Source: Rhodospirillaceae bacterium (GTDB lineage: Bacteria > Pseudomonadota > Alphaproteobacteria > Rhodospirillales > Magnetovibrionaceae). From it: 12,986 nt of DNA. Position 1 is the stretch's first letter, and each line of letters opens with the position of its first letter. Positions 1,714 to 12,395 of the stretch are shown here, piece after piece. The notes beneath the pieces are model-generated. The model made no database searches and was not told the DNA's origin. It saw only the letters and a list, made by a program, of their open reading frames with translations. Made by a program: the position numbers and the translations under genes. The stretch covers positions 15,355 through 28,340 of the forward strand of contig NVTL01000016.1 of assembly GCA_002401565.1 (NCBI GenBank), read 5' to 3'.

Positions 1714-2589
1714 CTAGATGAATTTTTTAAACAGTTTGGTGGTATCAAACAGGTCTTCTAAGTCTTTCATGCGATCTTGGGTTTCGTCCCAGTTTTCGGT
1801 CTGCACAGCCGAGATGACCGTTTCTAAAATGGACAAGGTGACAACGGATGAATCCCACGCCGAGGGGGCTTCGATGCGACAATGAAAACTGTGGGTGGCG
1901 TGTTTGGCGGCGGGTGAGCCCCATTGATCGGTAAACAAGATCAGCGTGACGCCTTTGGATTTCGCCATTTCGGCCAATCGTAAAATATCGCGTTCGTATC
2001 GGCGTACATCAAAAACCACCAACACATCGCCTTCGCGCATGTTCAAAACATAATGCGGCCAGGTGTTGGAATTGGACGCCACCAACGTTAAATGATCGCG
2101 AATAACCTGCATGTGCGTGAAAAAATAATCGGCCAAAGATCTGGATAGTCGTCCCCCGACCACGTGAATAGAGCGGTCCTTGTCGGCTAACAATTTCACC
2201 ACAGCGTCGAATTCCTGGGGGTCAATTTGGCGCAAGGTTTGGCGCATGTTGTCCATCACAGCATCTGCGAATCGGTTTAAAATATGGGTATCAGGGGCAC
2301 TTTCCGCCCAGCGATTATGCTTGGCAATGGGGTTCGAAAGCGTGGCTTCGACCTCTGAACGTAACGCGGCTTGAAGCTCTGGAAAGCCTTTAAATCCGAG
2401 CTTTTTCGCCATGCGGACAACGGTTGGTGTCGACACGTCAGAGGTTTCGGCAATGGCCGTGATGCTGCCCAGGCCGGATGCTGGGTAATTTTTGCGAATG
2501 GTGTTCGCCAATTGCCGTTCTGCACGGGTGAGATCGTCAAATTTAGCCCGAATGCGTTCCGCAACGGTAAAATCTCGCGTGTCGTTCAT
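1714..2589 (-). CDS. MurR/RpiR-family transcriptional regulator (HTH + SIS)
   Basis: This 291-residue regulator has the two-domain layout of the RpiR family. An N-terminal winged-helix region spans about residues 7-80, with the recognition segment near 43-62 (AIAETSDVSTPTVVRMAKKL). A C-terminal SIS domain spans about 128-262 (IHVVGGRLSRSLADYF, then GDVLVVFDVRRYERD and GVTLILFTD). SIS domains of this family usually sense phosphosugars, but members next to amino acid or amine catabolic genes are known. The gene is divergent from the amidohydrolase-TRAP-ligase operon across 184 bases containing palindromic boxes, so it is the probable regulator of that operon and perhaps of itself. GGGGAG lies about eleven bases upstream of the ATG. 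Whether it represses or activates, and its ligand, cannot be read from sequence. Confidence 0.9.
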   Translation of the reverse strand: MNDTRDFTVAERIRAKFDDLTRAERQLANTIRKNYPASGLGSITAIAETSDVSTPTVVRMAKKLGFKGFPELQAALRSEVEATLSNPIAKHNRWAESAPDTHILNRFADAVMDNMRQTLRQIDPQEFDAVVKLLADKDRSIHVVGGRLSRSLADYFFTHMQVIRDHLTLVASNSNTWPHYVLNMREGDVLVVFDVRRYERDILRLAEMAKSKGVTLILFTDQWGSPAAKHATHSFHCRIEAPSAWDSSVVTLSILETVISAVQTENWDETQDRMKDLEDLFDTTKLFKKFI

Positions 2590-2680: not shown

Positions 2681-2733
2681 TTTTAGAAATATTTGTTTCA
2701 GAAATGTACTTGACACACGGCGTATTTCTGAAA
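2681..2733. promoter_or_regulatory. Putative operator: three TTTCNGAAA-like palindromic boxes
   Basis: Three copies of a nine-base palindrome lie in the divergent region: TTTTAGAAA (2681-2689, one mismatch), TTTCAGAAA (2696-2704) and TTTCTGAAA (2725-2733). Boxes 2 and 3 also form a larger perfect inverted repeat: TTTCAGAAAT (2696-2705) against ATTTCTGAAA (2724-2733). The box centres are 15 and 29 bases apart. A TTGACA element (2710-2715) sits between boxes 2 and 3, and box 3 covers the spacer just before the likely -10. This is the arrangement expected for repression of the + strand operon by a dimeric or tetrameric regulator, and the adjacent RpiR-family protein is the obvious candidate. The pattern is directly visible; the assignment of the protein is inferred. 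Confidence 0.6.
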
Positions 2734-2742
2734 AAATATAGT
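2710..2742 (+). promoter_or_regulatory. Putative sigma-70-type promoter of the catabolic operon
   Basis: A perfect -35 hexamer, TTGACA, lies at 2710-2715. The -10 is ambiguous: the best hexamer, TATAGT (2737-2742), has an over-long spacer of 21, while better-spaced hexamers such as AATATA (2735-2740) match the consensus poorly. The AT-rich tract that follows leads to a GGGGG ribosome binding site at 2765-2769. The suboptimal spacing would fit a regulated promoter. Confidence 0.45.
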
Positions 2743-2773
2743 CAAATAAAATAGAAAAAATATTGGGGGTATC

Positions 2774-3535
2774 TTGTCCGTGACTTCGTCGCACGATAAT
2801 TTTGATTTGATCAACGTTGCTGGCAAAGGCGGCGTTGTGTTGGTGTGCGAACATGCTTCGAACTTGATTTTGGACGAGTACAAAAACTTAGGCCTCGACG
2901 ATGCGGCCCTGCAAAGTCACATCGCGTGGGATATTGGGGCGTTTAACGTTGCGAAGACCTTGTCTAAACTGTTGGATGCGCCGTTGATTGCGCCCAGTGT
3001 TTCGCGATTGATTTATGATTGCAATCGCCCCGCCGATGCCAAAAGTGCGATCCCCACCAAAAGCGAAGTTTATGACATTCCGGGCAATGTTGATCTTGAC
3101 GATGGTGAACGTAAAGACCGCGAAGACAAATTTTACAAGCCGTACCGCAAGGCCTTAGTCGACATCCTTGATCGGGCTAAAAATGAAGGCGACGCTCCTG
3201 TTCTGATCACCATCCATTCGTTCACGCCTGTTTTTGAAGGTCAAAAACGTCTGCTCGATTTGGGTATTTTGCATAATGTGGATACGCGGATGGCCGATCT
3301 GTTGCTGGATGTTCTTGAAAAAGACGGCAACTTGACGGCTCGACGTAACGATCCATACGGCCCGGCTCATGGCGTAACCTATACCTTGTCCGAACATGCG
3401 GAACCTCGGGGCTTGCTGAATGTCATGATCGAAATTCGCAATGATCTGATTTTGGATGAAGCGGCTCAACAAAACATGGGAAAGCAATTGGCGACGTATA
3501 TCAAAGCGGCCTTAAACCAAGGGGGAACATCCTAA
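2774..3535 (+). CDS. N-formylglutamate amidohydrolase-like protein, candidate gamma-glutamyl amide hydrolase
   Basis: This 253-residue cytoplasmic metal-dependent amidohydrolase belongs to the N-formylglutamate amidohydrolase family. Family motifs seen in order are VLVCEHASN (about 21-29, with candidate metal ligands E26 and H27), SHIAWDIGA (48-56), SRLIYDCNRP (77-86), ITIHSFTP (145-152, H148) and MIEIRNDLI (218-226). Relatives hydrolyse N-formyl-glutamate in histidine breakdown, but no hut genes are present here. It leads an operon with a GS-like ligase, ALDH and Fe-ADH, so I infer a role in removing glutamate from a gamma-glutamylated product. TTG at 2774 follows GGGGG by four bases. The GTG two codons later (2780) has a ten-base spacing and is equally credible. 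Its TAA overlaps the next ATG (TAATG), which implies translational coupling. Confidence 0.85.
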   Translation: MSVTSSHDNFDLINVAGKGGVVLVCEHASNLILDEYKNLGLDDAALQSHIAWDIGAFNVAKTLSKLLDAPLIAPSVSRLIYDCNRPADAKSAIPTKSEVYDIPGNVDLDDGERKDREDKFYKPYRKALVDILDRAKNEGDAPVLITIHSFTPVFEGQKRLLDLGILHNVDTRMADLLLDVLEKDGNLTARRNDPYGPAHGVTYTLSEHAEPRGLLNVMIEIRNDLILDEAAQQNMGKQLATYIKAALNQGGTS

Positions 3536-4038
3536 TGGGATTTTTCCGTAAATATATACACGTTGTGGACGCCGTGAACTACCGCATTGGGCGGGTCATG
3601 ATGTACAGCCTGTTTGGTTTGTTTGGCGTCTTGCTGTGGTCGTCGATTTCAAAAACTTTCTTTTTGCCGTCGCCGTGGACCTTGGAAGTCGCGCAGTTTT
3701 TCATGGTCGCTTATTACATCATGGGCGGGCCGTATTCGATCCAATTGGGCGCCAATGTGCGTATGGATTTGCTGTATGACCGTTGGTCGGCAAATAAAAA
3801 AGCATGGGCCGATGTCTTTACGATTTTTGTGCTGATTTTTTATCTGGGTGTGCTGCTGTATGGCGCGGTGGACAGCACCGCTTATTCTCTTAAATATTAT
3901 GAACGCAGTCCAACCGCTTGGCGTCCCTATATGTGGCCGATTAAGGTTTTGATGTGTACGGGAATTTTTCTTATGTTGCTGCAGGCGATTTCGGAACTGT
4001 TTAAAGATATTCTAAAAATCAAAGGGGAAGAGCTCTAA
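3535..4038 (+). CDS. dctQ: TRAP transporter small permease (DctQ family)
   Basis: This 167-residue inner-membrane protein has four hydrophobic helices at about residues 19-40, 49-68, 90-112 and 134-155, the normal size and topology of the DctQ subunit. The stretch GGPYSIQLGANVRMDLLYDR (64-83) matches the family's conserved loop, in which a G.H/N.R.D pattern leads into the amphipathic region. With DctM it forms the sodium-driven transport channel that receives substrate from the periplasmic DctP protein. The start codon overlaps the stop of the amidohydrolase gene (TAATG), and its own stop overlaps the dctM start in the same way. It is named by family only; the substrate need not be a dicarboxylate. 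Confidence 0.92.
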   Translation: MGFFRKYIHVVDAVNYRIGRVMMYSLFGLFGVLLWSSISKTFFLPSPWTLEVAQFFMVAYYIMGGPYSIQLGANVRMDLLYDRWSANKKAWADVFTIFVLIFYLGVLLYGAVDSTAYSLKYYERSPTAWRPYMWPIKVLMCTGIFLMLLQAISELFKDILKIKGEEL

Positions 4039-5360
4039 TGTCTTATGAACTCATAGCCGTTTTGATGTTTTCGATGATGATGTTGATGATGATGACGGGG
4101 CAACGCGTGTTCGGTGCCATTGGTGGCGTTGCGGCCTTGGCGGCTTTGACGTTGTGGGGAACAGGCGGTTCAGACTTGCCATTTTCCGCGGCCATGAAAT
4201 TAATGAAATGGTATCCGCTGCTGACGTTGCCCATGTTCATTTTCATGGGCTACGTCTTGTCAGAATCAAAAATTGCCGACGATTTATACAAAATGTTCCA
4301 TGTGTGGATGGGGCCGTTGAACGGCGGCCTTGCGATTGGCACCATTGGTTTGATGGTTTTGATTTCTGCCATGAACGGCCTGTCTGTTGCGGGCATGGCG
4401 ATTGGGGCAACCATCGCCTTGCCGGAATTGTTGAGGCGGGGGTATGACAAAAAAATGGTCACGGGGGTGGTCCAAGCGGGATCATCGCTGGGCATTTTGG
4501 TGCCGCCGTCTGTGGTGTTAGTTTTGTATGCCATGATCGCCCGCCAACCTGTTGGACAGTTGTGGCTGGCCGGGGCCATTCCGGGCCTGATGATGGCGGT
4601 GATGTTTGTTTTGTATATTGCCATTCGGTGTTATTTCCAACCACACTTAGGACCGGCTTTGCCAGAAGAAGAACGTAATGTTCCGTTGCGGGAAAAGTTA
4701 CGTTTATTGCGTGCGGGGCTTTTACCGCTGGGTATTTTTGTGGTGATGATGGTGCCGTTTGTCAACGGTTGGACCAGTCTGGTGGAAAGTTCTGCAATTG
4801 GCGCGTTGGGGGCTTTATTTGCGGCAGTTGTCAAAGGCCGTATGAACAAAAAAGTTTTGGACGTCACGGTGCGACAAACTCTGGCGATTTCGTGCATGTT
4901 CATGTGGATCATTTTGGCCGCCATGGCGTTTGGCGCGGTGTTTGATGGTTTGGGCGCGGTCAAAGCGATTGAAAACCTGTTCACAGAACAAATGGGTTTA
5001 AGCCCCTGGACCATCCTGATCATGATGCAGTTGTCCTTTTTGGTGATGGGCACGTTTTTGGACGATACCGCCATGTTGGTGATTGTCGCCCCCCTTTATG
5101 TGCCGTTGGTGGCGGCGCTGGGTTTTGATCTGATTTGGTATGGCGTGTTGTACACCATCACCACCCAGATCGCCTATATGACACCCCCGTTTGGATATAA
5201 CCTGTTTTTGATGCGGGCCATGGCCCCACCGGAAATCAGTATTAAAGATATTTACGGGTCTATTCTGCCATTTGTTTTGGTGATGCTGTTCGCGCTGGGT
5301 CTGATTATGACCTTTCCCCAAATAGCGCTGTGGCTGCCGGATTATGTCTATTCTAAATAA
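4038..5360 (+). CDS. dctM: TRAP transporter large permease (DctM family)
   Basis: This 440-residue polytopic inner-membrane protein is the main transport subunit of a TRAP system, with about a dozen hydrophobic segments and the usual DctM length. Hallmarks visible are GLSVAGMAIGATIALPEL (114-131), the LGILVPPSVVLVLYAM signature (151-166) followed by QLWLAGAIPG (174-183), and the C-terminal MTPPFGYNLFLMRAM (381-395), where many family members have TPP.G.NLF. The start overlaps the dctQ stop (TAATG). A 68-base gap with no clear promoter or hairpin separates it from dctP. It is expected to couple uptake to a sodium gradient, together with DctQ and DctP. Confidence 0.95.
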   Translation: MSYELIAVLMFSMMMLMMMTGQRVFGAIGGVAALAALTLWGTGGSDLPFSAAMKLMKWYPLLTLPMFIFMGYVLSESKIADDLYKMFHVWMGPLNGGLAIGTIGLMVLISAMNGLSVAGMAIGATIALPELLRRGYDKKMVTGVVQAGSSLGILVPPSVVLVLYAMIARQPVGQLWLAGAIPGLMMAVMFVLYIAIRCYFQPHLGPALPEEERNVPLREKLRLLRAGLLPLGIFVVMMVPFVNGWTSLVESSAIGALGALFAAVVKGRMNKKVLDVTVRQTLAISCMFMWIILAAMAFGAVFDGLGAVKAIENLFTEQMGLSPWTILIMMQLSFLVMGTFLDDTAMLVIVAPLYVPLVAALGFDLIWYGVLYTITTQIAYMTPPFGYNLFLMRAMAPPEISIKDIYGSILPFVLVMLFALGLIMTFPQIALWLPDYVYSK

Positions 5361-5416
5361 GGATTTGGGGGGATTTCTTTCTAAAGTACGAATATCGAAT
5401 TTAAACTTTGAAGGTT

Positions 5417-5422
5417 AAGGAG
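5417..5422 (+). promoter_or_regulatory. dctP: Ribosome binding site deciding the dctP start
   Basis: A perfect AAGGAG lies six bases before the ATG at 5429. It would fall inside the coding sequence if the in-frame TTG at 5408 were used, so it settles the start in favour of 5429. That start also puts the twin-arginine motif at residues 4-5. Confidence 0.85.
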
Positions 5423-5428
5423 AAGAAT

Positions 5429-6478
5429 ATGATTACAAGACGTAAACTACTTACAGGTGCCGGTGCTGCCGGTGTTGTCGGTGTTGCTGCGTTAGCGGCA
5501 CCATCCGTAAAGGCGAAGTCGAACAAAACCATCAAATGGCGTATGCAAACGTACGCTGGTGCGGCTTTGGGTGAACATGTGATTAAACCTGCGATCGACA
5601 GCTTTAACAAAGTTGCCGGCAGCGACATGCAAATCGAATTGTTCTATGCGGATCAATTGGTGCCCACCGGTGAATTGTTCCGGGCCATGCAAAAAGGCAC
5701 CATTGATGCGGTTCAGTCTGATGATGACTCAATGGCATCACCAACCGAAGTCACCGTGTTTGGCGGATATTTTCCGTTTGCCAGCCGTTATTCTTTGGAT
5801 GTTCCCGTGTTGTTTAACCAGTATGGTTTGAACGAAATCTGGGACGCTGAATATTCTAAAGTTGGTGTTAAGCACCTTTCTGCGGGCGCTTGGGATCCTT
5901 GCCATTTTGCCACCAAAGATCCAATTCACAACTTGAAAGATCTTAAAGGCAAACGCATCTTTACGTTCCCAACCGCGGGTCGTTTCTTAAGCCAGTTTGG
6001 CGTTATTCCTGTAACGTTGCCGTGGGAAGACATCGAAGTCGCCATGCAAACCGGCGAATTGGATGGCATTGCCTGGTCAGGTATTACCGAAGATTACACG
6101 GTGGGTTGGTCTAAAGTGACCGATTATTTCCTCACCAATAATATCTCTGGGGCTTGGGCTGGTTCTTTCTTTGCCAACATGGATCGTTACAACGAACTTC
6201 CAGAACATCTGAAAGAATTGTTGAAACTCGCCATGGACAGCTCGCATTATTATCGCCAGTGGTGGTATTGGGGCGGTGAAGCTGCCTTGCGTGTTGGTGG
6301 TAAAGACATGAAATTGACCACGATTCCGGATGAAGAATGGGCAACCGTTGAAAAGGCGGCCCATAAGTTCTGGGATGAAATTGCTGCAGAATCACCAACC
6401 AAAGCTAAGGTTGTTGAAATCTTCAAAAAATACAATGCAGACATGGTCAAAGCTGGTCGTCCGTACCGTTACGGTTGA
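5429..6478 (+). CDS. dctP: TRAP transporter substrate-binding protein (DctP family), Tat-exported
   Basis: This 349-residue periplasmic binding protein captures the substrate for DctQM. The N-terminus has a twin-arginine signal (TRRKLL at residues 3-8, hydrophobic run to about 25, probable cleavage after the VKA at 27-29), so it is probably exported folded. Mature-domain landmarks are ADQLVPTGELFRAMQKGTID (74-93), LKGKRIFTFPTAGRF (172-186) and MQTGELDGIAWSG (206-218). In well-studied DctP proteins such as SiaP and TakP, the residue after the strand motif LKG.K.. is an arginine that grips the substrate carboxylate. By my hand alignment that position is F178 here, with R185 seven residues on. 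The rest is rich in Trp and Tyr. This hints at an unusual substrate. dctP is followed by a strong hairpin, which may raise its dose above the downstream enzymes. Confidence 0.92.
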   Translation: MITRRKLLTGAGAAGVVGVAALAAPSVKAKSNKTIKWRMQTYAGAALGEHVIKPAIDSFNKVAGSDMQIELFYADQLVPTGELFRAMQKGTIDAVQSDDDSMASPTEVTVFGGYFPFASRYSLDVPVLFNQYGLNEIWDAEYSKVGVKHLSAGAWDPCHFATKDPIHNLKDLKGKRIFTFPTAGRFLSQFGVIPVTLPWEDIEVAMQTGELDGIAWSGITEDYTVGWSKVTDYFLTNNISGAWAGSFFANMDRYNELPEHLKELLKLAMDSSHYYRQWWYWGGEAALRVGGKDMKLTTIPDEEWATVEKAAHKFWDEIAAESPTKAKVVEIFKKYNADMVKAGRPYRYG

Positions 6479-6493
6479 TCCATCGATCTTTGT

Positions 6494-6534
6494 GACAAGG
6501 CCCCTACCGTGGGGCCTTGTCCTTTCGATTTTTT
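6494..6534 (+). terminator. Intra-operon hairpin with T-tract after dctP (partial terminator or 3' stabiliser)
   Basis: GACAAGGCCCC (6494-6504) pairs perfectly with GGGGCCTTGTC (6511-6521): eleven pairs and a six-base loop (TACCGT). Seven bases later there is a run of six T (6529-6534), and the next gene's ribosome binding site starts at 6537. The stem is stable enough to terminate, but the T-tract is displaced and the downstream enzyme genes have no visible promoter of their own. The likely role is partial termination or protection of the dctP 3' end, giving more binding protein than enzymes. Confidence 0.7.
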
Positions 6535-6548
6535 ATAAGGTGAGTAAA

Positions 6549-7919
6549 ATGGCAGGCAAATTAACATTAGACGAACTGCGCCAAGCAGGAAAAAAAGGCG
6601 AGATTGATACGGTTTTAGCCGTGCTTGTCGACATGCAGGGCCGTTTGATGGGCAAACGCATGCACATCGATTTTTTTGTCGATGGCGCGTGGGCAGAAAC
6701 TCATTGTTGCAATTATTTGCTGGCCACCGATATGGAAATGGAAACTGTCGAAGGTTATAAATCGACGGGTTGGGAATCGGGTTACGGCGATTATATGATG
6801 AAGCCGGACCTAGACACCTTGCGCCGGATCCCGTGGTTAGAAGGCACCGCCTTGGTCATTTGTGACGTGTTGGATCACCACACAAAAGAACCTATAGCGC
6901 ATTCCCCACGGGCCATTTTGAAAAAGCAAATTGCGCGGCTAGAAGACTTAGGCATGAAGGCTTACATGGCGACCGAACTGGAATTTTTCCTGTTCAAGGA
7001 AAGCTTCGAAGAAGCCCAAGAGTCTGGGTACAGAAACCTCACGCCATCGAGTGCCTACAACGAAGATTACAATATTTTTCAGACCACCAAAGAAGAAGAC
7101 GTCATGCGCGCGATCCGCAACGGATTGAACGGCGCTGATATTCCGGTGGAAAATTCAAAAGGCGAAGCGTGCGCCGGACAGGCCGAAATTAATGTGCGTT
7201 ACGCCGAAGCCCTGTCCATGGGGGATCGCCACGCGATCATCAAAAATGGCTGTAAAGAAATCGCTTGGGCCAAAGGCCGTTCGGTCAGCTTTATGGCGAA
7301 ATGGAGCTATGACGCGGCGGGCAATTCTTCGCACGTTCATCAATCGCTGTGGAGCTTGGACGGCAAAACGTCGTTGTTTTATGATAAAGACAGCGCATAC
7401 GGCATGTCGGATTTGATGCGCCATTACTTGGCGGGCATGTTGAAACACGCCAGCGAGATCACATATTTTCTGGCGCCGTACATCAATTCTTACAAACGCT
7501 TTAGGGAAGGCACGTTCGCTCCGACCAAGGCGATTTGGGCTAAGGATAACCGCACCGCCGGATACCGCATTTGCGGTGCCGAAAGCAAAGCCGTGCGTAT
7601 TGAATGCCGGGTTGGGGGAGCAGATTTAAATCCATACCTCGCCATGGCGGCCATGTTGGCTGCGGGCATTGACGGCATGGAAAATAAATTGGAACTGGAG
7701 GCCGAAGCCCAAGGTGATGCTTACGCCAATCCGGACGCTCGGGAAATTCCAACCACGCTGCGCGATGCTATTGTTGAATTGGATAATTCCAAAATGTTGC
7801 GTTCCGCGCTTGGAAATGACGTCATCGATCACTATGTCCATGCTGGACGTTGGGAACAATATGAACAAGACCGTCGCGTCACGGACTGGGAAGTCCAGCG
7901 CGGCTTTGAAAGAGCTTAA
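6549..7919 (+). CDS. Glutamine synthetase-like amide ligase (candidate gamma-glutamyl-amine synthetase)
   Basis: This 456-residue member of the glutamine synthetase fold probably uses ATP to join glutamate to an amine. Catalytic-core motifs are present: metal ligands E143 and E145 in ATELEFFLF, GQAEINVRYAEA (210-221; E213, E220), NSSHVHQSL (259-267), the phosphate/glutamate region around NRTAGYRI (334-341) and RIECRVGGADLNPYLAMAAM (350-369). It differs from housekeeping GlnA. The N-terminal DGSS motif, whose Asp binds ammonium, is replaced around STGWESGYGDYMMKPD (72-87), and the NLYDLPPE adenylylation loop is missing near 388-403. Both differences suit a biosynthetically unregulated ligase for amines, like PuuA, GMAS or IpuC. 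I chose the ATG at 6549 because AAGGTGAG precedes it; the open frame upstream runs inside dctP. Fifteen bases separate it from the ALDH gene. Confidence 0.88.
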   Translation: MAGKLTLDELRQAGKKGEIDTVLAVLVDMQGRLMGKRMHIDFFVDGAWAETHCCNYLLATDMEMETVEGYKSTGWESGYGDYMMKPDLDTLRRIPWLEGTALVICDVLDHHTKEPIAHSPRAILKKQIARLEDLGMKAYMATELEFFLFKESFEEAQESGYRNLTPSSAYNEDYNIFQTTKEEDVMRAIRNGLNGADIPVENSKGEACAGQAEINVRYAEALSMGDRHAIIKNGCKEIAWAKGRSVSFMAKWSYDAAGNSSHVHQSLWSLDGKTSLFYDKDSAYGMSDLMRHYLAGMLKHASEITYFLAPYINSYKRFREGTFAPTKAIWAKDNRTAGYRICGAESKAVRIECRVGGADLNPYLAMAAMLAAGIDGMENKLELEAEAQGDAYANPDAREIPTTLRDAIVELDNSKMLRSALGNDVIDHYVHAGRWEQYEQDRRVTDWEVQRGFERA

Positions 7920-7934
7920 TTTAAGAGAAAAAAC

Positions 7935-9317
7935 ATGACAAATGTAATCAAATGTATCTCCCCCGTGGACGGTTCGGTGTATGTCGAACGTCCTATCGCG
8001 ACCTCAGGTGAAGCCAAAGCGATTGTTGATAAAGCCCATGCTGCTCAAAAAGAATGGGCCGCACGGCCGATGGCAGACCGCATCAAATTGGTCGAGGCTG
8101 GTGTTAAACGCCTTGGCGAAATGAATGACGATGTGGTTGTTGAACTGGCTCATATGATGGGCCGCCCGGTGCGCTATGGTGGTGAATTTGGCGGCGTTAA
8201 TGATCGTGCTGCTTACATGGGCAGCATCGCCGAAGAAGCCTTAAAACCCATTATTGTTGAAGAGTCCGATGCGTTTGAACGTCGCATCGTGCGCGAAGCT
8301 CACGGTGTGGTGCTGGTCATTGCCCCGTGGAATTACCCGTACATGACGGCGATCAATACCGTTGCCCCGGCTTTGATTGCGGGCAATACGGTGATCATCA
8401 AACACGCCAGCCAAACGGTTTTGGTTGGTGAACGCTTGGTCAAAGCATTTGTTGAAGCGGGTGTACCTGCTGACGTGTTCCAAAATATCTTTTTAGATCA
8501 CGACACAACGTCATCCTTGATCGCGGCCAGAAGCTTTGATTTTATAAACTTCACCGGCTCTGTTGGTGGTGGTCAGGCCATGGAAAAAGCAGCGGCGGGA
8601 ACCTTTGTTCCTGTTGGTTTGGAATTGGGTGGCAAAGATCCCGGTTACGTCATGGACGATGCCAATTTAGACGCGGCCGTCGAAACCTTGATTGATGGAG
8701 CGATGTTTAATGCTGGTCAGTGTTGTTGTGGGATTGAACGTATTTACGTGATCGAAAGCCTGTATGACGCATTTGTCGAAAAGGCTGTGAAGATTGTCTC
8801 GGGTTATAAACTGGGCAATCCATTAAAAGAAGAGACCACCATCGGTCCCATGGCGCACAAACGTTTTGCCGCCGAGGTCCGTAATCAAATTTCCGAAGCC
8901 ATCAGCGATGGCGCAACGCCCATGATCGATGCTGCATTATTTCCCGAAGACGATGGCGGAGCTTACCTGGCGCCGCAAATTCTCACCAACGTAAATCATT
9001 CCATGCGGGTGATGCGCGATGAATCCTTTGGTCCCGTTGTGGGCATCATGAAAGTCAAAGACGACGCCGAAGCTTTGGAACTGATGAACGATTGTGAATT
9101 TGGATTGACGGCGTCTATCTGGACGCAAGATGCCAGCCGTGCCGCCGCGATGGGCGCTCAGTTAGAAGTCGGCACGGTGTTTATGAACCGCGCCGATTAT
9201 GTTGATCCGGGCCTGTGTTGGACCGGGTGCAAAGCCACAGGCCGTGGCGGCGCTTTGTCTGTTATTGGGTTCCATAATCTAACCCGTCCAAAATCTTACC
9301 ACCTAAAGAAAGCTTAA
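7935..9317 (+). CDS. NAD(P)-dependent aldehyde dehydrogenase
   Basis: This 460-residue cytoplasmic enzyme oxidises an aldehyde to a carboxylate. All ALDH landmarks are visible: APWNYP (130-135, with N133 stabilising the intermediate), the Rossmann loop FTGSVGGGQAM (206-216), LELGGKDP with general base E230, the nucleophile region NAGQCCCGIER with catalytic C264 flanked by C263 and C265, and ESFGPV (363-368). It is slightly shorter than the usual 480-500 residues. It lies between the GS-like ligase and the Fe-ADH, four bases before the latter, so the pair probably act in sequence on one substrate, alcohol to aldehyde to acid. By the gamma-glutamylation model the aldehyde is a gamma-glutamyl-amino-aldehyde, the same kind of substrate used by PuuC. 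A weak AAGAG ribosome binding site precedes the ATG. Confidence 0.94.
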   Translation: MTNVIKCISPVDGSVYVERPIATSGEAKAIVDKAHAAQKEWAARPMADRIKLVEAGVKRLGEMNDDVVVELAHMMGRPVRYGGEFGGVNDRAAYMGSIAEEALKPIIVEESDAFERRIVREAHGVVLVIAPWNYPYMTAINTVAPALIAGNTVIIKHASQTVLVGERLVKAFVEAGVPADVFQNIFLDHDTTSSLIAARSFDFINFTGSVGGGQAMEKAAAGTFVPVGLELGGKDPGYVMDDANLDAAVETLIDGAMFNAGQCCCGIERIYVIESLYDAFVEKAVKIVSGYKLGNPLKEETTIGPMAHKRFAAEVRNQISEAISDGATPMIDAALFPEDDGGAYLAPQILTNVNHSMRVMRDESFGPVVGIMKVKDDAEALELMNDCEFGLTASIWTQDASRAAAMGAQLEVGTVFMNRADYVDPGLCWTGCKATGRGGALSVIGFHNLTRPKSYHLKKA

Positions 9318-9321
9318 CGTC

Positions 9322-10467
9322 ATGACCTTGACCGCAAATTGGAGCTACCCCACGGCCATTCGTTTTGGTGCGGGCCGCATTAAAGAACTCGCCAAAGCCT
9401 GCGAAGCCACGGGCATCAAACGTCCGTTATTGGTCACCGACCGGGGCTTGGCAAATCTGCCGATCACCCAAAATGCGCTGGACCTGTTGGACAAAGCAGG
9501 TTTGGGCCGGGCCATGTTCAGCGAAGTTGATCCCAACCCCAGCGACATTAACTTGGAAGCCGGCGTTAAAGTATTTAAAGCCGGAAACCACGATGGTGTG
9601 ATCGCCTTTGGGGGTGGTTCAGGCTTGGACTTGGGCAAAGTGATTGCTTTTCAGGCCGGACAAACCCGCCCGGTTTGGGATTTCGAAGACGTTGACGATT
9701 GGTGGACGCGTGCCGATGCGGACGCTATTGCCCCCATCATCGCCGTGCCGACCACCGCAGGCACCGGGTCCGAAGTGGGCCGGGCTGGGGTTTTGACCAA
9801 CGCCAAAACCCACGTTAAAAAAATCATCTTCCACCCTAAAATCCTGCCCGCAATCGTCATTTGCGATCCGGAATTGACCGTGGGCATGCCGACTGTGATT
9901 ACGGTCGGCACGGGCTTGGATGCGTTTATTCATTGCTTGGAAGCTTACAGCTCGCCATTTTATCATCCCATGAGCCAAGGCATCGCTTTGGAAGGCATGC
10001 GTTTGGTCAAAGAAAACCTGCCCAAAGTTTTTGCCGACCCGAACGATATCGAAGCCCGCAGCCATTTGATGAGTGCGGCCGCCATGGGCGCCACGGCGTT
10101 TCAAAAAGGTCTGGGCGCGATGCATGCCATGTCTCATCCCATCGGTGCCACGTATAATACGCACCACGGTATGACCAATGCGGTGGTGATGCCCGCCGTG
10201 TTGAAATTTAACCGTCCCGCGATCGAAGGCCGCATTGATGCGCTTGCCGCTTATCTGGGTATCGAAGGTGGGTTTGATGGGTTTTATGATTATGTCATGA
10301 AATTACGCGCGGATTTAGGCGTTCCCGCGACTCTAACCGATTTCGGCGTGCCCAATGATCGCCTTGATGATTTGGCGGCGATGGCTGTGGCCGATCCGTG
10401 CGCGGGTGGAAATCCTGTTGAACTGACCTTGGATGCGGCAAAATCCTTGTACAAGGACTGTTTTTAA
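9322..10467 (+). CDS. Iron-containing alcohol dehydrogenase
   Basis: This 381-residue group III (iron-type) alcohol dehydrogenase has the normal length for the family. The dinucleotide-binding region is GGGSGLDLGK (97-106), followed by PTTAGTGSEV (143-152). The metal site is complete by comparison with FucO: D200 and H204 in TGLDAFIHCLEAY, H268 in GAMHAMSHP and H282 in THHGM. The C-terminal DPCAGGNPVELTLDAAKSLY is also typical. It closes the operon, starting four bases after the ALDH stop, and has no separate promoter. It is the enzyme that makes this cluster differ from a polyamine (Puu) pathway, because it needs a hydroxyl on the substrate. Reduction of an aldehyde to an alcohol is the alternative direction, but the tight coupling to an ALDH favours oxidation. 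Confidence 0.94.
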   Translation: MTLTANWSYPTAIRFGAGRIKELAKACEATGIKRPLLVTDRGLANLPITQNALDLLDKAGLGRAMFSEVDPNPSDINLEAGVKVFKAGNHDGVIAFGGGSGLDLGKVIAFQAGQTRPVWDFEDVDDWWTRADADAIAPIIAVPTTAGTGSEVGRAGVLTNAKTHVKKIIFHPKILPAIVICDPELTVGMPTVITVGTGLDAFIHCLEAYSSPFYHPMSQGIALEGMRLVKENLPKVFADPNDIEARSHLMSAAAMGATAFQKGLGAMHAMSHPIGATYNTHHGMTNAVVMPAVLKFNRPAIEGRIDALAAYLGIEGGFDGFYDYVMKLRADLGVPATLTDFGVPNDRLDDLAAMAVADPCAGGNPVELTLDAAKSLYKDCF

Positions 10468-10907: not shown

Positions 10908-12395
10908 ATGGGCGATAATCGCTATAAAGAACTGGTCGAACAGATCTCAGACTGGTTGTGGGAAGTCGATGAAAACGCTTGCTATACATACGCGAGCCCG
11001 AAAATTTATGACCTATTAGGACATGCGCCCGAAGATGTCATCGGTAAAACGCCCTTTGATTTGATGTCCGTGGAAGAAGCGGACCGCATTGGTAAGATTA
11101 TCGGGCCAATCTTTCAAAACAGAGAACCCTTTTCCCAGCTGGAAAATGTCAATCGGCATTTAGATGGCCGACGGGTCATTTTGGAAACCAGTGGCGTGCC
11201 GTTTTTTGATGAGGACGGTACCTTTAAAGGTTACCGCGGCATTGATCGTGACATTACCCACAGAAAACAAATTGAAACGGAATTGGCCGACAAAGCCACC
11301 GAATTAAAATCTCAACAATTCGCCCTAGATGTGCACGCCATTGTCAGCATCACCGATGTTGAAGGCAAAATCCATTACGCCAATCAGAAATTTTGCGACA
11401 TTTCGGGGTATTCTGTGACGGAATTACAGGGGCAAAATCACCGCATTATTAAATCTGACGAACATCCCCCCGAATTTTTCAAAGAAATGTGGCAAACCAT
11501 TTCCCAAGGGGATGTGTGGCAGGGCGAGATCAAAAACACGGCCAAGTGCGGCCGGGCGTATTGGGTGATGAGCACAATCGTGCCGTCGTTAAATGCCAAA
11601 GGCAAGCCGTTTCAGTATATTTCGATCCGCACCGATATCACCGAACGCAAAACGGCGGAGCTGAAGGCGATTACGGCCAACCGTACAAAATCGGATCTGA
11701 TGGCCAACATGAGCCATGAATTGCGGACACCCTTAAACGCCATCATCGGATTTTCCGCAGCCATCCGATCCCAAGTCTTTGGCGAGCTGGGGCATGCAAA
11801 ATACGCGGAATATATCGAAGACATCCATTATTCAGGTCAGCATCTGTTGGATTTAATCAACGATATTTTGGACGTGTCGGCCATTGAAGCCGGGGCCATA
11901 AATTTACAAGAAGAATTGGTCAGCATTTATGAGGTGGTCGAAACCTCTATTCGTCTGATCCGACCCAAAGCCTCACAAAATGCTATCACCATCAGTTCTT
12001 TGATTGATGAAAATACGCCGCGCATTTTTGCAGACGAACGGCGCTTGAAACAAATTTTCTTAAACTTGCTCAGCAATGCGGTGAAATTTACGCCCAAACG
12101 TGGGGATGTGATCACCAGTTCTTGGCTGAATGAAGTTGGCGATCTGGTGATTTCTGTCGCCGATACGGGCATTGGCATGGATGAAGCCGAAATTCGCACC
12201 GCGCTCAGCGTCTTTGGTCAGGTCGATAGCGGATTGGACCGTCAGCACGAAGGCTCTGGGTTGGGCTTGCCCTTAACCGTGGGGTTGGTTGAAACGCACG
12301 GTGGACGTTTGGACATCAAAAGCGACAAAGGCCATGGTACGCAAGTCTTGGTGACGTTCCCCAAAGATCGTTTGCGGCCCTGTTTTCCGGCTTAA
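10908..12395 (+). CDS. Soluble PAS-PAS sensor histidine kinase
   Basis: This 495-residue sensor kinase has no membrane segment, so it senses a cytoplasmic signal. Domains in order are PAS 1 (about 5-120, ending GYRGIDRDITHRK), PAS 2 (about 132-250, ending QYISIRTDITERK), the HisKA dimerisation helix with phospho-acceptor H270 in NMSHELRTPLNAIIGFS, and HATPase_c (about 372-485) with the N-box NLLSNAVKF (N390), G1 DTGIGMD (419-425) and G2 GSGLGLPL (449-456). PAS 2 carries the ISGYS, WQTISQGDVWQGEI and YWVMSTIVP patterns seen in flavin-binding Aer/NifL-type PAS domains, which suggests redox or oxygen sensing. No response regulator lies next to it in the window, so it may be an orphan kinase. GGGGGCTGA directly precedes the ATG. 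It converges on the rhodanese gene with one base between stop codons. Confidence 0.93.
   Translation: MGDNRYKELVEQISDWLWEVDENACYTYASPKIYDLLGHAPEDVIGKTPFDLMSVEEADRIGKIIGPIFQNREPFSQLENVNRHLDGRRVILETSGVPFFDEDGTFKGYRGIDRDITHRKQIETELADKATELKSQQFALDVHAIVSITDVEGKIHYANQKFCDISGYSVTELQGQNHRIIKSDEHPPEFFKEMWQTISQGDVWQGEIKNTAKCGRAYWVMSTIVPSLNAKGKPFQYISIRTDITERKTAELKAITANRTKSDLMANMSHELRTPLNAIIGFSAAIRSQVFGELGHAKYAEYIEDIHYSGQHLLDLINDILDVSAIEAGAINLQEELVSIYEVVETSIRLIRPKASQNAITISSLIDENTPRIFADERRLKQIFLNLLSNAVKFTPKRGDVITSSWLNEVGDLVISVADTGIGMDEAEIRTALSVFGQVDSGLDRQHEGSGLGLPLTVGLVETHGGRLDIKSDKGHGTQVLVTFPKDRLRPCFPA

Follow-up and report, generated by a model that had tools for sequence, protein, structure and literature searches.

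A very probable member of the known eto ethanolamine operon family, with a predicted gamma-glutamyl route to glycine, in a Rhodospirillaceae draft genome

The stretch of DNA analyzed here, referred to below as the window, comprises 12,986 nucleotides of a Rhodospirillaceae bacterium (GenBank assembly GCA_002401565.1, contig NVTL01000016.1, positions 15,355 to 28,340) and forms part of a 3.03 Mb draft genome that is 86% complete. The ORF list of the window includes seven open reading frames (ORFs), all on the + strand and with outer ends at 2774 and 10467, and each of their Pfam assignments (FGase, DctQ, DctM, DctP, Gln-synt_C, Aldedh and Fe-ADH) exceeds the curated cut-off. A preliminary description of this DNA had proposed a seven-gene operon of these same families, and all of the ORFs are indeed there; what it left out is a divergently oriented regulator of the RpiR family that belongs with the operon. 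We assign the locus with high confidence to the eto ethanolamine operon, known from Phaeobacter sp. MED193 (Westermann et al. 2023, PMC10132767), and with it to a gamma-glutamyl route from ethanolamine to glycine. The genes and predicted elements, in window coordinates, are as follows.

1714..2589, - strand: RpiR-family regulator (Pfam HTH_6 64 bits, SIS 80 bits), counterpart of MED193_10021
2682..2703, no strand: predicted RpiR operator O1, TTTAGAAA-N6-TTTCAGAA, 2 mismatches to TTCTGAAA-N6-TTTCAGAA
2710..2737, + strand: sigma-70-like promoter match (TTGACA, 16 nt, AAAAAT), between and overlapping O1 and O2
2726..2747, no strand: predicted RpiR operator O2, 4 mismatches, its start lying 44 bp beyond that of O1
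2774..3535, + strand: predicted gamma-glutamylglycine amidohydrolase (GGAH) of the FGase family (PF05013, 137 bits)
3535..4038, + strand: EtoV, TRAP small permease DctQ (PF04290, 71 bits)
4038..5360, + strand: EtoW, TRAP large permease DctM (PF06808, 229 bits)
5429..6478, + strand: EtoX, TRAP ethanolamine-binding protein (DctP; Pfam DctP 74 bits, 606 bits to 4uab/4xf5)
6494..6521, + strand: terminator-like stem-loop of 11 pairs between etoX and the ligase gene (hairpin/terminator scan and folding)
6549..7919, + strand: ligase resembling glutamine synthetase (GS), predicted ethanolamine gamma-glutamylase (Gln-synt_C, 342 bits)
7935..9317, + strand: aldehyde dehydrogenase (ALDH), predicted gamma-glutamyl-aminoacetaldehyde dehydrogenase (PF00171, 392 bits)
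9322..10467, + strand: Fe-containing alcohol dehydrogenase (ADH), predicted gamma-glutamylethanolamide dehydrogenase (PF00465, 161 bits; PF25137, 148 bits)

Translation of the amidohydrolase would begin at TTG 2774, behind GGGGG, or at GTG 2780, and that of DctP probably at ATG 5429, behind AAGGAG, rather than at TTG 5408. The ligase starts at ATG 6549, and a 529-residue ORF running from 6330 is an artefact of upstream reading.

The MED193 paper describes a single eto operon, MED193_10021 to _10056, in the order RpiR, gamma-glutamylglycine amidohydrolase, EtoV, EtoW, EtoX, ethanolamine gamma-glutamylase, gamma-glutamyl-acetaldehyde-amide dehydrogenase and gamma-glutamylethanolamide dehydrogenase (PMC10132767). 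Compared by gene list, the window has these eight genes too, arranged alike, with no difference in content or order found. The earlier statement that no characterised operon has exactly this set is therefore not supported, although the enzyme steps in MED193 are themselves labelled as predicted. There EtoX binds ethanolamine with a Kd of 7.9 uM and shows no binding of phosphorylethanolamine, phosphocholine or glycerol phosphates. Five proteins of the operon are raised on phosphorylethanolamine, and roughly 5 to 10% of ocean bacteria are reported to carry etoX; Vetting et al. 2015 is cited in the same text for Chromohalobacter salexigens and Agrobacterium C58 (PMC10132767). The operon has thus already been described in print and the pathway is not new. 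The window adds one more genome to the known eto carriers, and our further additions are minor: a pair of operators, a stem-loop behind etoX and the occurrence of EtoX-type transporters in genomes that have no close relative of the ligase.

For this organism everything is inferred, the substrate of each enzyme and the regulation included, ethanolamine binding by EtoX and induction of the operon's proteins on phosphorylethanolamine having been shown in relatives. EtoX would capture ethanolamine in the periplasm and EtoVW would import it, after which the GS-like ligase would use ATP to join it to glutamate, giving gamma-glutamylethanolamide. The Fe-ADH would then oxidize the alcohol to the aldehyde, the ALDH would convert the aldehyde to gamma-glutamylglycine, and the FGase-type hydrolase would release glycine and return the glutamate. 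As long as neither ethanolamine nor an intermediate is at hand, the RpiR-type protein probably keeps the operon repressed by way of two operators placed around the promoter. Capping of the amine, oxidation from alcohol through aldehyde to acid and cleavage of the amide had all been anticipated in the preliminary description, and the sequence of steps agrees with the published account of the eto operon (PMC10132767). Ethanolamine is widespread as a membrane head group, and such a route would return it as glycine and recycle the glutamate without a requirement for B12.

The most likely substrate is ethanolamine, which had also been the first choice earlier. The best PDB match of DctP, by a wide interval, is the 4uab/4xf5 sequence (606 bits, E 1.5e-181; runner-up 68 bits). 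The protein in 4UAB is Csal_0678 of Chromohalobacter salexigens, an EtoX homologue solved with bound ethanolamine at 1.40 A, where Glu220 holds both amine and hydroxyl (PMC12410723); the assignment of substrate also agrees with PMC10132767. Window residue E228, numbered from TTG 5408, most likely matches Glu220, as the nearest Glu in the chain by numbering (index 217 in the 4uab alignment). It is Glu in 98/98 distinct near-full-length relatives, window included (an earlier alignment had given 102 of 103 rows, four of them repeats, and 98 is the count of distinct sequences), and the next-nearest candidate, E217, is kept in only 94 of the 98. Csal_0678 is described as lacking the Arg with which TRAP binding proteins hold carboxylates (PMC4646407). 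The aligned residue of the window, F185, falls on the Arg of four other solved TRAP binding proteins (4yzz, 4yic, 4pet and 5cm6), and this carboxylate-binding Arg is absent from EtoX throughout the 98 distinct relatives, with F in 71 and Y in 27. EtoX also carries a signal peptide with RR close to its start.

The same chemistry could act on another small 2-amino alcohol, such as L-alaninol, which would yield alanine, or on several, and we regard this as improbable. A further PDB entry with the 4uab sequence, 4xf5, is reportedly an alaninol complex. Another, unrelated ethanolamine receptor binds L-alaninol and serinol as well (PMC12410723). Set against this, EtoX of the closest described operon binds ethanolamine and the operon's proteins rise on phosphorylethanolamine, as noted above for MED193, with no mention of alaninol seen among the analogues tried there, and ethanolamine is by far the more abundant in nature. 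No support was found for 3-aminopropanol, a further substrate suggested earlier.

In order to gauge conservation of the locus the GTDB genome collection was scanned with the ligase, giving 148 relatives, of which the best 80 loci were kept; gene order was counted in the 53 of these whose ligase is flanked by 5.5 kb or more on the upstream side and 3.2 kb or more on the downstream side, and the 27 with less flank were excluded. Genes in the relative loci were called by tblastn at identity thresholds between 30 and 50%, and diverged copies may therefore escape. All eight genes occur in the order and orientation of the window in 28 of the 53 loci, each with the RpiR gene as divergent neighbor, a figure that speaks for an arrangement not due to chance. 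DctQ, DctM and DctP are all present in 42 of the flanked loci. In three of the loci that lack TRAP genes (L018, L019 and L040) the neighbors of the ligase form no common alternative pathway, most of the ORFs being unannotated. One of the three, L019 (5952-10359), places a close relative of the ligase (71%) beside BKACE and 3-hydroxyacyl-CoA dehydrogenase genes, with no other eto gene detected. A diverged version is found in a 1.4 Mb genome (L099, 4031-12440), in which the TRAP genes are directly followed by the ligase (50%) and the ADH, the ALDH lies upstream, and RpiR and GGAH were not detected.

Against the PDB the ligase scores 620 bits to 5dm3 and 611 bits to 11zs, the former being the ligase of C. 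salexigens. The records with the closest ligases (70-79% identity) include Rhodospirillales, Thalassospiraceae, Hyphomicrobiales, Rhizobiales, Kiloniella and Gammaproteobacteria among their labels; C. salexigens is itself a gammaproteobacterium (PMC2553793). The only PDB relative of GGAH is 2odf, Atu2144 (E 3e-69). Among the NCBIfam matches listed, none is over its cut-off for the ligase, the ALDH (best 25 of 46), the ADH or the amidohydrolase, and because of this automatic annotation may keep missing the pathway. Identification of the amidohydrolase as the N-formylglutamate deformylase HutG was rejected (26 bits against a cut-off of 279), as were those of the ligase as a glutamine synthetase (GlnA, 261 of 429 bits; type III GS, 241 of 470) or as the gamma-glutamylputrescine synthetase PuuA (210 bits against 650). 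A reading in which the ligase makes glutamine or acts on polyamines, the two dehydrogenases serve an unrelated alcohol and the genes are mere neighbors is very improbable: the ALDH and Fe-ADH families are broad and none of the listed NCBIfam models reaches its cut-off for the three enzymes, but the ligase lies far below all three of those cut-offs and the conserved eight-gene order and the published operon oppose mere adjacency. Elsewhere in the same genome there are three more FGase-family genes (contigs C111, C62 and C11), two of which score identically, and two other GS-family genes about 6 kb apart (C65:6534-14666), 29 and 31% identical to the ligase.

It is useful to set the eto operon beside other systems. 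The Puu pathway for putrescine employs a GS-like ligase, the amine oxidase PuuB, an ALDH and then amide hydrolysis; ligase, ALDH and hydrolysis are alike in the window, which has an alcohol dehydrogenase where Puu has PuuB. The Ipu pathway of Pseudomonas sp. KIE171, from isopropylamine to L-alaninol, likewise proceeds through N-glutamylated intermediates en route to the amino alcohol, and differs in starting from an alkylamine and a hydroxylation; no monooxygenase for such a step appears by Pfam among the seven genes of 2774-10467. The Eut pathway shares ethanolamine as substrate and converts it to acetaldehyde with EutBC, a B12-dependent ammonia lyase. In Streptomyces coelicolor the GS-like GlnA4 is a gamma-glutamylethanolamide synthetase, and the later steps are predicted alike, an FGase-family hydrolase included (PMC6529630). 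As given in the accessible text, its cluster SCO1610-1615 resembles the window in combining a GS-like ligase, predicted dehydrogenases and an FGase-family hydrolase, and differs in that no TRAP transporter is described there and the regulator is EpuRI; other Streptomyces have a permease gene (PMC6529630).

The distribution of the system was followed in 385 genomes of the class, with E values up to 1e-100 for EtoX and up to 1e-120 for the ligase and with no correction for kinship. Carriers number 47 for EtoX, 42 for the ligase and 27 for EutB. EtoX and ligase occur together in 23 genomes (p 3e-13) and are therefore strongly associated. EtoX and EutB overlap in 5 genomes, with approximately 3.3 expected (Fisher p 0.35), ligase and EutB in one (p 0.34), and all three in none. 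The 47 EtoX genomes divide into 23 with a close ligase, 5 with EutB but without that ligase, and 19 with neither; among them EutB occurs in 0/23 with the ligase and 5/24 without (p 0.05), a separation that is weak because the five come from only two genera. These five EutB genomes contain EtoX-type TRAP genes with no adjacent ligase (L090-L094). EutB was not found in the genome of the window, 86% complete as noted, and EutC was not searched for; EutB was likewise not found in 38 of 38 genomes examined from among those of the 80 relative loci. The preliminary description had foreseen independence from the EutBC lyase, and the lack of EutB in these genomes is in its favor; an exclusion across the class is not shown. 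Strict exclusion between pathway and EutB was accordingly rejected, since 0/38 is striking, but EutB is rare to begin with and some of the 38 have the ligase and no adjacent TRAP genes.

Several observations weigh against the assignment of the locus to an ethanolamine pathway of this kind. In eleven of the 53 flanked loci the TRAP set next to the ligase is incomplete or missing, and of the 23 genomes that share EtoX and ligase only 13 have the two adjoining; 9 have them at separate places, and in one (G365) they are on two contigs. Just over half of the EtoX-type genomes, 24 of 47, have no close ligase. The absence of EutB is by itself weak, given a base rate of 27/385 and one genome, G078, with both ligase and EutB. 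Finally, a figure legend of PMC10132767 labels the pathway as predicted, and the C. salexigens pathway is called an in silico prediction by Krysenko et al. (PMC6529630) versus demonstrated by Westermann et al. (PMC10132767).

Genomes with EtoX and no neighboring ligase were considered further. Two of the 19 with neither enzyme, L114 (1375-8060) and L115 (5603-12054), keep GGAH, DctQMP, ALDH and ADH and leave no room for a ligase between DctP and ALDH, and none was detected in their operon stretches. Five others of the 19 (L110, L111, L113, L118 and L119) keep RpiR and GGAH beside EtoVWX, L118 meeting a contig end soon after EtoX. Clustering of 32 EtoX neighborhoods without ligase, with Pfam and NCBIfam run on selected ORFs, gave no common substitute, most ORFs being unannotated. 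A lenient ligase search of the 24 EtoX genomes without a close ligase returned GS-family relatives in 24/24, with about 28 to 42% identity and indistinguishable from ordinary GS paralogues. We raise, tentatively and as a doubtful case, the idea that TRAP transporters of the EtoX type serve as an uptake module, coupled in different lineages to different routes of ethanolamine breakdown, in which case the 19 genomes with neither enzyme would rely on a third route or on a ligase that has escaped recognition. As a point against this idea, all 19 have some GS-family gene in the identity range just given, and several are broken into many contigs.

The control region was compared in the window and in 50 other loci, out of 130, in which RpiR and GGAH diverge within 900 bp, giving 51 stretches, all distinct. 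The words TTCTGAAA and TTTCAGAA recur in these stretches, and the palindrome TTCTGAAA-N6-TTTCAGAA is found with at most 2 mismatches in 12 of them (shuffle mean 0.03), a count that is partly circular, as the motif was derived from the same 51 stretches. The distance between two sites, by contrast, played no part in choosing the motif. Pairs of sites 44 bp apart occur in 11/51 at up to 4 mismatches each (mean 0.0 in 60 shuffles), in 13/51 at up to 5 (0.03 shuffled) and in 18/51 at up to 6 (0.15); at this last threshold 44 bp is matched in frequency by distances of 15 and 29 bp (20 each). The 11 loci are not independent, because five of them are Kiloniella, and no Roseovarius or Sulfitobacter locus is found in the lists of 44-bp pairs. 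In the window the two predicted sites, 2682-2703 and 2726-2747, lie around a -35 element, TTGACA at 2710, in a region where sigma-70-like matches number 19 versus 11.7 expected by chance, and TTGAC follows the start of O1 by 28 bp in the window and in 5 of 8 relatives compared. No paper on such RpiR operators came up in searches of literature listings, which we do not take to mean that they are unpublished. Together with the stem-loop considered next, the predicted operator pair makes eto regulation testable.

The 70-nt gap between etoX and the ligase gene has a folding energy of -27.5 kcal/mol (z -3.8); the surrounding region contains 21 terminator-like matches, versus 13.1 expected by chance. 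Over 64 loci the median z of this gap is -2.24, and 39/64 lie at -2 or lower; the medians of other gaps are -0.76 for DctM-DctP (98 rows, a few of them repeats), -0.14 for GS-ALDH (36) and 0.27 for ALDH-ADH (10). In 64 of 65 rows, one of them a second copy of the window, there is a hairpin with an energy of -10 kcal/mol or lower, and in 17 rows 5 or more of the 10 bases behind it are T; this count, unlike the z-scores, has no shuffled control. Hairpin sequences were seen by eye to vary greatly among genera, and the stem-loop is kept more in structure than in sequence. Perhaps it protects the etoX mRNA or partly terminates transcription, and it may raise EtoX above the enzymes. Hairpins behind genes of binding proteins are ordinary.

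Outside the operon the window encodes a YchJ-like protein with SEC-C motifs (1171-1689) and, 3' of the last gene, a PAS-domain sensor histidine kinase (10908-12395), matches to which also lie near EtoX in L106, L117, L120 and L121.

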